Shown here: piece by piece, positions 27,801 to 39,800 of the stretch
Numbering within the stretch: the stretch's first letter is position 1
How the letters are laid out: each line of letters begins with the position of its first letter
From: Sipunculus nudus
Lineage: Eukaryota; Annelida; Sipuncula; Golfingiida; Sipunculidae
Reading direction: 5' to 3'
Assembly: GCA_026874595.1 (NCBI GenBank)
Contig: CM049307.1
Location: forward strand, 34,080,862 to 34,144,861
DNA: 64,000 nucleotides
Made by a program: the position numbers and the translations under genes
Notes under the pieces: model-generated
The model's input: the letters and a program-made list of their open reading frames with translations, nothing else
The model's database searches: none
Told to the model about the DNA's origin: nothing

Positions 27801-30800
27801 TTTTGTCTACATTCTTAAAATGATGGCTAAATCTCTGATCTGCATCCAACCCCACTGCACTTGTGTCATACACATACACTACCAAAGTACATATAAATAG
27901 ACAAATTTGTCAGACTCCACATTCAATTAATAACCATTCCACCAAAATAAAAAGGCCATGCAAGCAAGCAGTGTTAAATAGTAAAAGGTAGAAGCAGGTG
28001 AAGTGAAGCATATGTGGGATTATCAGCCAATCACTGAAGAAACCTGGCCACTGTTAAATAACTGACACTACATCTTAATACAACCCCATGACACAATACC
28101 TGTATGACCACATAGAAGAGCCCCAGAGGTATGATCACTGTAGCAAACAGGGGTGTACTCATTGAAATCACAATGAGTGTCGCAATGTTTTTCAGGAAAG
28201 TGTGCAACCAAGATTGTAATGTTTTAGGAATGACTGTGTCTATGCCATCAATGTCTTTGGAAAACCGGTTCAGGAGTCGCCCTATCGGAGTGGTGTCGAA
28301 AAACAGCATGGGTGATCGCAGACAGTTGGTCAGGAGCTTGCCATGGAGGCCTAACGAAGCTTGTACTGCACCACGTGCCAGAGCATACGATGATGCAAAG
28401 AGAGCAACCCCTGTCAATGACATGAAAAGCTGCTGTAAGGACAGCGTGGCCACCTACTTCTATTAGAGACCAAGATCTGGTGATCAGTGTTCTTTAACCT
28501 TCTCAGTACTATCTATTGATGTTTCTTCCCTTTGATGGTGATGGTATCTCATGTCACACAACAACAAAACTATTGTCCTAAATAAAATAACACAAATCTA
28601 TTTTGGCTGCAAATAAAAAGCTGCGAAATTAGTCAACAACATACACATCACATGCACAGATTAAAATTGTCAACTGTTGTGGCAAGCTGTGAATGAAGTG
28701 CTGATATCACACATTTTGAACCAAATCCATACACTTTATTACATACATGTCATCCTCTTCCCCAGCTCTTCCAGAAATGCATAATTTAATGACTCTGTTT
28801 CCAAAATGAATTTTACAATCAATAATTTTTTAGATCAATGATTTTATTATTTTTTCCATGGATCCCTTATTAAGCATATTTTAACTGGTCTTCAGCTTAA
28901 GTCATGTTTGGAGAATTAGAATAAAATGAAGAAAAATGCCTTTGGATGTGTTTTGTCTGGTGCATCAGTAAATACAATCAGGCCTTCATTTAAGGCATCT
29001 AAGATATAGATTTTGTTATGGCACATTTCAGTGGACTTCTGGGTGACCACTCTGGCATACAACTCTATGCCACTCATGAATGGGTAAAAATAAAATAAAC
29101 AAAGGCATTAATGTTCTTTCACTTAACAAATGAAATAACATAAGCAGCGTGCCATTGTTACATAAATTTACTTTAACACTAATACCAAAGATTTGAAAGA
29201 CAGGATTTGACCTGTTGGAATGCAAATTGGCGGAAAGCGCAAAATCACAAATAGCACCAAGGCACCAGGGTATCAACATATATAAACCACGCAGGATGTT
29301 AAAACTTCTGTATCTCAGGGTAACCTCTACCTAGCATCCCATCAGAATTTATGTCAAGCTTGTATTTAAGGACAAAGGTTAAATGAAAAATAAGCCAATT
29401 TGTGGAATTTATGTCCCCCCATCCCTTCTGCCTCTTGTTATATTCGCTTCCTGTGATTTTCATGCTTGCCTTCAGAATATGTTTTAGTTTTTGTTTCCCC
29501 CCTGAAGATGTCTTCACATGTCACAGTGCCTTTGTTTTAGTTTTCATTGTCCCCTGAAGATGTCTCCAAGTCATAATATTTGTTGTGAATTGGGAACATA
29601 CGGGAAAATGTTTGTCTTGGAACAGGCGATAATAAATTTTCAGACAGACACTCCAAAACTAGTCCCAACCAAGGTGTGCATTGGGGCAATCAGTGACCCA
29701 AATTGAATGAATTTGGATGATATTTAGGTAAGTTAACACATGAAAACGAAAACCTGGCGGACGGACAGAGGGACAGAAATCAAACCCAAATCAATGTCCC
29801 CCATTCCACAGAAGCGGATTGAAACAGAAACAGATTGAATATGAAGCTATCTTTTTGTTTTAAAAGAGGAACTATTGAGCAGAGTGAACTTAAATCATTT
29901 GATTGTAGATTTATAAACCAAAAGCTAGCAGGTCTTACACTCGTAAGAATGAATCAGTTTTATACATTTATGAACTGTAAACGCTCAGGCAAAGTGGTTT
30001 TGGTACCCTATTATCATTATTATCAGTAATAGTAATAATATGGATTGGATTTTCTGTCAGAATGTAAATTCATACTATGCTTTCTAGTATTCAAATTTAC
30101 AATTTCATTTTCTATCTATACATGAATACTAGACAACCTGCCATGGAAATTACTTACTCTGTTGCTTTTCACTGCAATGATGAATTCAATATTTTCATTA
30201 TTCAAGGTGCTACTTAAAGACTGGGAATGCTACTATAATTTGTTAAATGAATGTAGTACTTACATAAAAGGATAAATAAATTAATGCTATCTTTAAATAG
30301 GGGAATACTTAGAAGTACATCATTTTTGCACAAACTGAAGTTATCACAATGCCTCAAGTCCAAGATACAATATGACCGCTGCCAAATACTTTGGACATTA
30401 TCACAACCAGTATAAGTGTTCTTCTGTTTCAGTAGCTTTACGACAAAATGTACACTTATCATTTTCCCTTAAACCCCCATTTCATTAACCAGTAGTTATC
30501 AGCTGATATATCTTGCAACAATATATATTAAAAGCAGTTTGATTTGTATCAATACATATTTTAAAAAGGCAGTACAAAAATATTTTACCCCAGTGCTATG
30601 GTAGTACTGTGTTCTACAACAAGATGTCACTGCACGTGGTCTCTTCCATATGAGTGTTCCCATTCCAAATTACCTTTCTTGCAGTTGGCAAATACAGTCA
30701 CACAACAGTAGGAGTATTGTGATTTTAAAACTAGGATTTAAAGATAAAATACCAGTAGACTTTATGATTCTTTAATGCTGATAGTGTGAATAAGTAATCT

Positions 30801-36800: not shown

Positions 36801-39800
36801 TTTATAAACTATATATTTTTTTAATTTTATTTTTAACAAATTATTCATAAAGTGAATTTAAAGTCAACAGTTAAAATGAGTGATTTTGTATTTGCTTTTC
36901 AGGAAATGTTGTTAGTAATTCCTATCTGAACGTGCTTCATTAGTATTGAACATGAGTGTGTAGTATCATTTAATGCATCTGAAGCTATATATCTAATCAC
37001 AGCCAATAATCTAAGACATTACATATTACTTAATAAGCCATGTTTCACAAAAGAACTATTAAAGATTCCCTAGATCTAGTAAATAAAAGCCTGAACTAAC
37101 ATAACATTATGGTGTTTTTGACACTAAATAGAATGAGGGACTACATGTGTAATAAGAAGCAGAGTTTTACTGTAAGAATAATAACATGATTTATTAATAC
37201 AGGGCAAAAAGGGTTTGGAATGTAATTGGATGTAATCATAAAATATGGACCAGCAGTTGCATTTCAAATTATCATAAAAACAATTACAATATAAATCAAC
37301 AAGGGAATAACAAAGAAAAAGATCAAGCATGGGTGTGCAAAGGAGGTGGGGGGGATTGTTTAATGAATCAGGTTTCAATCAAACCCTCATATAAAATCTA
37401 ATAAAAATTTCACATGAAATTTGCATAGACTTATATATATATATATGTGTGTGTGGAGTATCCAAAAAAACTCTAATACTTATCAACTATGATTTTTAAA
37501 ATATAAAAAACACCTGAACAAAGTACATATCAAATCACATCCAAATTATCCATTTTGGACTAGTTGAACCTCTGCCTCTGAAACTTAAAAAAAAAAATAA
37601 CTGATTAACATATCTGTAGAAATATGAATGCCACTGTGAAAAAAAGTGATTCTCAATTTGATTTTTTTCAATTTCACAATAAAAATATAAAGGGTTAGAT
37701 AAGCCATGGAGTGTTGACATCTGTAAAAGGAAAAGTCATCTATTCTAATTACACTTACCAAGATTATATTAACACAAACTGCTGTAAAAAACAAAAAAGG
37801 CTGAGAGCAGAAAGCATATCAACTGTTTGTGCCTTATTTATTCTAATTATTTCAACCCTTCAATGATTTCTGACTGAAAGTTTCATGAGCCATAAGTTTT
37901 CAATAGTTTTTATAACAACTCTTGAATCAGAGTTGTGACAGAATTGTAACATGAGAACATATGATATCTGAAATTGTTTTGTTCTCTTATTATTATTTTT
38001 CTAGCAATATATCTCAAATTTTGACATGCAGGCTGTGTTATCTGGCTATAAAGTTATACTATAAGTGGAATGCAAAATATCCCCAGTGTACAAGAAATTT
38101 GTCTGAGATGTTTTGGTGAAAGAAATATTTGCTGAGAGAGTTTGGAGTCATGGGGATGTGTAACAGCAAAGTTTAAACAGAACAGCACTTTATTTTACCA
38201 GGCCAAATTAATCAAATTATATTATTATTATTATTACTATTATTATCATGATATAATATTTAACTAGTTCAGACCCAATGAAACACGGTTATTTACACCA
38301 TAATTTCAAGAAGTATTCCATCCCATAAAACTAGGTTATAGTTAAAGAAAAATAGTAATATAAGGGGATAATGATGTAAATATTTTGATACTGGCTATGT
38401 ACCCTCCTCAGAGGGATCTTAGTAATTTTCTTAATTGATTTCTGTAGCTCTCATTAAGTCATCACAGACTAATTCTCTTTGGCTGGGTCCTGTACAGGTA
38501 AAGCTCCAAACTGCCAGGTTAGATTTGAGAAGTCATGTAAGATGTATACTGTATCTTCAATTTTATAACATATATGGTAAAATCAAATCATTTAAACAGA
38601 TAATACAATTATGTATTCTGAATAAAGCTGAATCATCATTTAATTTGACAAAAAAGTTATAATTTCCACAGCTTAATCAATTTATATTTGAAAAGAAATA
38701 ATATTCAGTTGAATCTGGGGTAAATAGGTTGGGCTAAAAAAGAATAGGGAATGACCAAAAGACCTAATAGACACTTTTGGTACAGCACACCAGTTCACAT
38801 GAGAGAGAAAAAGAGAAGGGTAAAAAAATTATATTCGCACACTGCAGAAGACAAGATCTACTTTAGAAACACTGAAATCACATCCGATTACCTCATTACC
38901 TGAATAAGAAAATAGATAATGGCAAGAGGTGGTACAGCAACTAAGAAGATGATTGTGGTGGCAGCGATGACAATGAGAATGGATGTTGTTTGCAGGATAG
39001 TGTTGATCATTGATCTAATGGTAAATGGCATGACAAGATCAACAGTGGCCATGTCCTCTGAGACACGGTTCATAATTCGACCAATGGGAGTCTGCTCGTG
39101 GAACTGTAGAGGTACATGTAATATTTGGTTGATGAGATCACTGTGGATCTGGGTCGATGCTCTCACGCCCCCGTAAGCTGTCACATATGCAGCACTGATT
39201 TCTAACAAACCTGCAAGATAGTTGTTACTCAGTCTGCAGCACAAGGTAATCACAATTTTTGCTTAATACTGATGGCTCTACAAGCAATGCTCCCAGGGAT
39301 ATAAACCAGTTTCAAATAATAACATTCACTTATGAACAAAGTAATTTACAACAGTAAAAAGTGAATTGTATTCACCTTGTTATAAGGTTTCCTTTATCTT
39401 AACTGGAACTATAGGTCAAGGGTATCAAAAGCCTGAACATACATCTTTTAAATTAATACAGTTAATCTTGAACATTTTACAAGTGACTGTACATTTGTTA
39501 AGTTTTATATCCCTGTTACAAATTGTCATCAGAGGGTAGTCCATCTATATTAAACTGCAATCAGAGTATGACAAGAGCCCTGGAAGCTGAAACACAAATC
39601 TCCCTGTGTTAAACATTTAATCATAATCATTAATGCATGGTTATAGTAACAGGATTCACAAAATAAATGTGCATGTTTGAAATTCAAAGAAAACATGAAA
39701 ATGGCAAATTAATTTAAAATATTTGTTCTACATCAAATTTATTCATCAGCTGATTACCATTAACAATTAATATAAAATACCAGACTTTTACAGTTTGTGT

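Follow-up and report, generated by a model that had tools for sequence, protein, structure and literature searches.

A probable mutually exclusive array of four 311-bp exons in an MRP1-type transporter gene of Sipunculus nudus

A stretch of 64,000 nucleotides from the sipunculan Sipunculus nudus (GenBank assembly GCA_026874595.1, contig CM049307.1, positions 34,080,862 to 34,144,861 of the forward strand) was analyzed and is called the window here. Its minus strand holds four exons of exactly 311 base pairs (bp), named A1 to A4, between the shared exons X11 and X12 of an MRP1-type (ABCC1) gene. We consider it likely that these four copies, or cassettes, are a mutually exclusive array derived from one ancestral 311-bp exon, and that the exon was probably duplicated before annelids and molluscs split. 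One mRNA would most likely take exactly one of A1-A4. Up to four versions of the pump would result. They would differ in a 104-residue segment of the second membrane domain, in which lies the inner loop that extends towards the ATPase domain.

Four equal-length exons that fit the frame only one at a time

The array is headed by A1 (38900 to 39210), followed by A2 (34859 to 35169), A3 (31771 to 32081), and, at its end, A4 (28100 to 28410), all on the minus strand. Each copy has AG before it and GT after it and runs from phase 1 to phase 0, with two bases that finish a codon and then 103 open codons. For A3, two further open 311-bp frames between AG and GT are possible, neither of which is in step with A1, A2, and A4. 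Alignment of the 104-residue units needs no gaps and gives 37 to 54 identical residues. An earlier note on this DNA had described four minus-strand 311-bp exons with these borders and phases and a gap-free alignment, and the positions, borders, and phases all agree with that description.

Coding constraint is evident in several measurements. None of the 12319 103-codon windows in the introns A1-A2, A2-A3, A3-A4, and A4-X12 is open, and all four cassettes match Pfam PF00664 with 55.6 to 61.9 bits. Nucleotide differences between copies are most frequent at codon position 3 (0.63-0.71) and least frequent at position 2 (0.23-0.35) in all six pairs. A recent duplication was ruled out, as nucleotide identity is 49-58% and synonymous change is very high or saturated. 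Protein searches of the whole genome (1,426,538,692 bases, 153 contigs) with A4 and with A1 recovered these four copies and no fifth at the array.

The shared exon before the array, X11 (40697 to 40910, minus strand, 214 bp), ends in phase 1, and the one after it, X12 (24212 to 24411, minus strand, 200 bp), starts in phase 0. Sixteen combinations of copies are possible between them. The four that contain a single copy are all open to the stop in X19, while skipping and all 11 multiple inclusions run into an early stop in X12 or in a cassette (12 of 12), which bears out the earlier claim that the frame permits one copy only. Because any other number of copies shifts the frame and leads to premature termination, we infer that a single copy per mRNA is most likely. 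The splice acceptors were also scored. The cassette acceptors (A1, -2.25; A2, 2.82; A3, 3.21; A4, 1.73) are weaker than the gene's 19 constitutive acceptors (one-sided p 0.022). Four of these 19, X4, X5, X6, and X10, are no stronger than the cassette acceptors, which counts against the reading proposed here, and the difference is therefore suggestive only.

The exon length appears to be old. A paralogue on another contig of the same genome, C10, has one such exon, also of 311 bp (C10:29475040-29475350). The exons that follow it, of 200, 127, 102, 147, 159, 167, and 195 bp, have the lengths of X12 to X18, to which the paralogue borders were fitted from 2 to 10 candidates each. In a gene tree, this MRP-type paralogue falls outside the group formed by the window gene and its lophotrochozoan relatives. 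Because it has a single exon at this place and the next seven lengths match, the length and phase of the cassettes are most simply explained as inherited from an old exon, and A1-A4 would be tandem copies of one ancestral 311-bp exon. Exon 23 of human ABCC6 is presumably 311 bp long as well.

Age of the copies and the A1 class

Sipuncula is placed within Annelida (PMC10212961). A gene tree of 791 shared columns grouped the window gene with Owenia, Capitella, a nemertean, and a metagenomic protein (support 94/88), outside a mollusc clade (95/96), and constraining it into the molluscs gave p 0.0295. Gene trees with fewer columns did not recover mollusc monophyly and do not settle the placement. 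The 791-column tree speaks, though not strongly, against a mollusc origin, and the earlier hint that the animal is a mollusc was not upheld, the gene lying outside Mollusca in this larger tree.

The cassettes of other animals were taken from the best 120 of 6788 homology matches, 118 of which contained 134 near-full cassette matches. Fifty-five of the 120 were labeled by hand and comprised molluscs, annelids, a nemertean, a metagenomic protein, lancelets, a hemichordate, and a few vertebrates; insects, crustaceans, and most fish were left out of the cassette rows. Three trees were calculated. Tree 1 contained the 64 rows, four of them from the window, that remained after identical cassettes were removed. 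Tree 2 was made without the lancelets, vertebrates, hemichordate, and Dreissena, and tree 3 without Dreissena and with the C10 paralogue.

A1 grouped with cassettes of the gastropods Haliotis asinina, Nucella lapillus, and Elysia in all three trees (100/94, 100/99, and 100/94). A2 was closest to a Lymnaea cassette (96/95 in tree 1), a grouping seen in two of the three trees. A3 and A4 were placed with Capitella and the metagenomic protein (95/80 in tree 1), a group that was starred again in trees 2 and 3.

Further comparisons set the A1 class apart. A profile built from the three gastropod members alone gave A1 105.8 bits and A2-A4 73.1-75.3 bits. T11, A55, F63, M68, and P94 are invariant in the four A1-type cassettes and rare (0 to 3%) in the remaining 60, A2-A4 included; these five residues were picked as invariant with A1 included and are not independent evidence for A1. 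In the 60 other cassettes, position 50 is F in 59, position 52 is K in 52, and position 55 is D in 46. At these three sites all four A1-type cassettes depart from this pattern, with V or C at 50, E or D at 52, and A at 55, and neither an acidic residue at 52 nor A at 55 occurs in any of the 60 others. A1 and the Haliotis cassette are mutually closest (50 of 104 residues identical). In the gene models of Nucella and Elysia, where several copies are strung together, the A1-type copy leads, as in the window array; the Nucella model is partial, and Haliotis shows a single copy only. The A1 unit alone as a query returned 5 proteins of 64 candidates, with Haliotis the best, and the Haliotis unit returned 8 of 169 with no further named animal, in searches that need shared 5-residue words and in a collection clustered at 90%, where isoforms are hidden and absence means little.

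A rather unlikely alternative is that the array is mutually exclusive but that all four copies arose inside the sipunculan or annelid lineage, with the likeness of A1 to the gastropod cassettes due to convergence or long-branch attraction. Several independent duplications of MRP arrays across metazoan phyla are cited in an excerpt of PMC6071210, and several of our own results weigh against an older origin. Forcing the four window copies into one clade gave p 0.035, 0.043, and 0.086 in trees 1, 2, and 3, which are borderline values, the last of them, with the paralogue added, not significant. A single clade of mollusc cassettes (p 0.051 and 0.076) was not rejected at 0.05. A1 is identical to the Nucella and Elysia members at just 41 of 104 residues each, and several unrelated cassettes match it equally well or better, up to the 43 of two lancelet cassettes. 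The group of A2 and Lymnaea was not starred in tree 2, although it was in tree 3. The cassettes are short (104 columns), many forks are without resolution, and the A1-type branches are long, so that long-branch attraction is possible.

Other results oppose an origin of all four copies within the lineage. These are the supported A1-gastropod group in every tree, the one-clade p values of trees 1 and 2, and the p values for forcing A1 with A2 (0.006) and A1 with A3 and A4 (0.012), both groups having been named after the tree was seen. To these can be added the preference of the gastropod-only profile for A1 by 30 bits, the reciprocal best identity of A1 and Haliotis, and the leading position of the A1-type copy in Nucella, Elysia, and the window gene. 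The annelid copies as one clade gave p 0.027 in tree 3, again for a group named after the tree was seen.

Since A1, and with less certainty A2, fall into classes that gastropods also have, the exon duplication was probably earlier than the annelid-mollusc split, and so the array is probably older than that split. The A1 class is likely older too, a case that is good and not closed, and the A2 class is possibly so. We tentatively propose, with somewhat less than even confidence, that the MRP1 array was not invented anew in each phylum and that its first copy is a single unbroken lineage which has held the leading position since before the annelid-mollusc split. It would be marked by the reversal of charge (K to E or D) in the loop coupling the membrane domain to the ATPase domain and would give a version of the pump with a different energy coupling as well as a different substrate pocket, kept for more than half a billion years.

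The host transporter and the predicted effect of the variable unit

The gene product passes the curated MRP model TIGR00957 (1596.8 bits against a cut-off of 1470, over profile positions 486-1522), and its nearest solved relatives are ABCC3, MRP1, and ABCC2. The cassette lies in the second membrane domain, at about residues 1024-1126 of ABCC3. Both results uphold the earlier assignment of the exons to that domain (MSD2) of an ABCC transporter. Transport of anionic conjugates is predicted for an ABCC1/MRP1-type product.

The variable unit aligns to residues 1027 to 1130 of human MRP1, and we take these residues to form helix 13, the inner loop, helix 14, and most of helix 15. Cassette position 67 corresponds to methionine 1093 of the human protein, which presumably lines the hydrophobic pocket; the residue there is S in A1 and A4, A in A2, and M in A3. 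From its variation we infer a fit with an altered substrate range; similarly, the charge reversal of the A1 class in the inner loop may be read as consistent with altered coupling.

How one copy could be chosen

The introns between the copies are 2777-3730 bp long, and steric exclusion was ruled out because this is too long. Exclusion between U2 and U12 splice sites was ruled out as well, because the donors are ordinary GT donors, none of which resembles the U12 consensus.

Selection could instead be left to frame-dependent mRNA decay, in which any pattern is spliced and the wrong ones are destroyed. We think this unlikely. Twelve of the 16 combinations do stop well ahead of the last junction, but such a process would be wasteful given four copies.

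Another possible explanation is that competing RNA pairings set the choice, a docking site pairing with a selector near one copy or another. The candidate is a 16-base stretch at 38780 to 38795 (minus strand), about 100 nucleotides after A1, which is the perfect complement of 25033 to 25048 (minus strand) in the intron A4-X12. The pairing has an energy of -43.5 kcal/mol, compared with a mean of -13.3 (standard deviation 4.4) over 800 scanned stretches, and the layout given for MRP1 in an excerpt of PMC6071210 also places the docking site downstream of the cluster. On the other hand, it ranks 9th of the 105 intron pairs of the gene, the top pair (-56.2) being outside the cluster, and two such 16-base matches with at most 3 mismatches were obtained in 9 of 100 shuffles. 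No equally strong partner was found within 400 nucleotides of A2, A3, or A4. The pairing is therefore within background and is a lead only, and selection by these particular sites seems quite improbable. No known RNA family was found in the window at gathering scores.

That only one copy works, with the others, A1 above all, rarely used or dying, is very unlikely, for although the A1 acceptor scores lowest of the 23 and the conserved loop motif is altered in A1, this copy is open and in frame and shows the third-position excess against each other copy, and its deviations also occur in gastropods.

Relation to the MRP arrays of other animals

Tandem exon arrays in metazoan MRP/MRP1 genes were reported by Yue et al. 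(2017, RNA Biol 14:1399), as cited in excerpts of PMC6071210 and PMC9741552. The former lists 8 exons for fly MRP, and according to the latter, the fly and nematode MRP exon events are unrelated and yet coincide in structure. The array in the window resembles these metazoan arrays in that an MRP1-type gene has homologous exons in tandem within the second membrane domain, of which each mRNA would use one. It differs from them in that one copy class is apparently common to an annelid and to gastropods, contrary to an independent origin in each phylum. Annelida and Mollusca are reportedly named in the abstract by Yue and coworkers among the phyla with MRP arrays, and to our knowledge, an array in Sipuncula was not described there. 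Our literature search for an MRP exon array in molluscs, annelids, brachiopods, and oysters found none among the matches listed. The sipunculan array is new within a known kind of gene design, and the continuity of one copy class across phyla may be the new element.

The borders of the variable stretch within the unit were compared in 12 pairs of isoforms or species. In the pairs of Mercenaria (three) and Branchiostoma (three), differences extend from residue 3 or 4 to residues 97-103, with identical flanks. The database models of Mercenaria mercenaria MRP1 isoforms X1, X2, X3, and X5 are identical over the 71 residues before the unit and the 12 after it and differ only inside. Variation in Mercenaria is therefore limited to the 104-residue unit with the same borders as in the window array, although the Mercenaria cassettes cluster with those of other bivalves and not with the window copies. 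One Haliotis pair among the 12 was a comparison between species.

The arrays of Drosophila and other insects belong to the same gene family and affect an overlapping region of the protein. In contrast to the window array, the variable stretch stops at residue 74 of 104 in two of the five arthropod pairs, those of Gryllus and Vespula; the other three were comparisons between species, with the last differences at residues 88, 98, and 98. The variable exon of insects therefore appears to stop sooner and to have another 3' border than the window exon, which favors another origin without proving it. The earlier note had asked whether the array shares its origin with the insect case, and this difference moves the answer towards a separate origin.

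MRP1 arrays are cited as an example of convergent splicing evolution in an excerpt of PMC6071210. If copy classes can be traced across phyla, some of this convergence would be shared ancestry followed by turnover. A sharp test is offered by the A1 class, namely the same reversal of charge in the coupling loop in distant animals. Sipunculus nudus, with its chromosome-level sequence in place, would be a usable model for a four-form pump. Separately, public gene models were seen to join two or three alternative cassettes within a single protein; these are probably annotation errors that mark unrecognized arrays.

Shared exons and other observations

The window contains roughly the final two thirds of one minus-strand gene, from X1 (start at 52956) to the stop in X19 (9762). 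The shared exons upstream of X11, all on the minus strand, are X1 (52891-52956), X2 (50212-50349), X3 (49586-49732), X4 (48716-48794), X5 (48291-48366), X6 (47752-47878), X7 (46848-47024), X8 (46127-46294), X9 (45600-45789), and X10 (41838-42084). Those downstream of X12, on the same strand, are X13 (21596-21722), X14 (21192-21293), X15 (19493-19639), X16 (14068-14226), X17 (13278-13444), X18 (10746-10940), and X19 (9762-9876), the last of which holds the stop. The junction of X9 and X10 is out of frame in the present model, which probably lacks a small linker exon there; a script search for this exon gave no candidate. Most of the amino-terminal part is encoded by exons within about 20 kilobases (kb) outside the window. 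Upstream exons on the same strand match MRP1 residues 23-81 and 115-162, pointing to an extra amino-terminal membrane domain of which some pieces were not found.

A minisatellite at 10873-12542 of the window (99-bp units, 16.8 copies, 92% matches) overlaps X18. Its unit combines the end of the intron and the acceptor with the first part of X18, which encodes the ATPase signature. Of 12 unit starts recognized by pattern, only the genuine one at 10940 is open through X18, and the 11 upstream ones hit a stop.

Elsewhere in the genome, six ABCC-like matches lie inside about 175 kb at C1:21632395-21806452 and are probably a tandem gene cluster. On the minus strand of the window, two near-identical open stretches (53369-53584 and 54367-54582), spaced 998 bp apart, represent a tandem duplication. 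A repeat of more than 1 kb is present in two copies, at 15246-16502 and 58934-60208 of the window, with similar open stretches on both strands.

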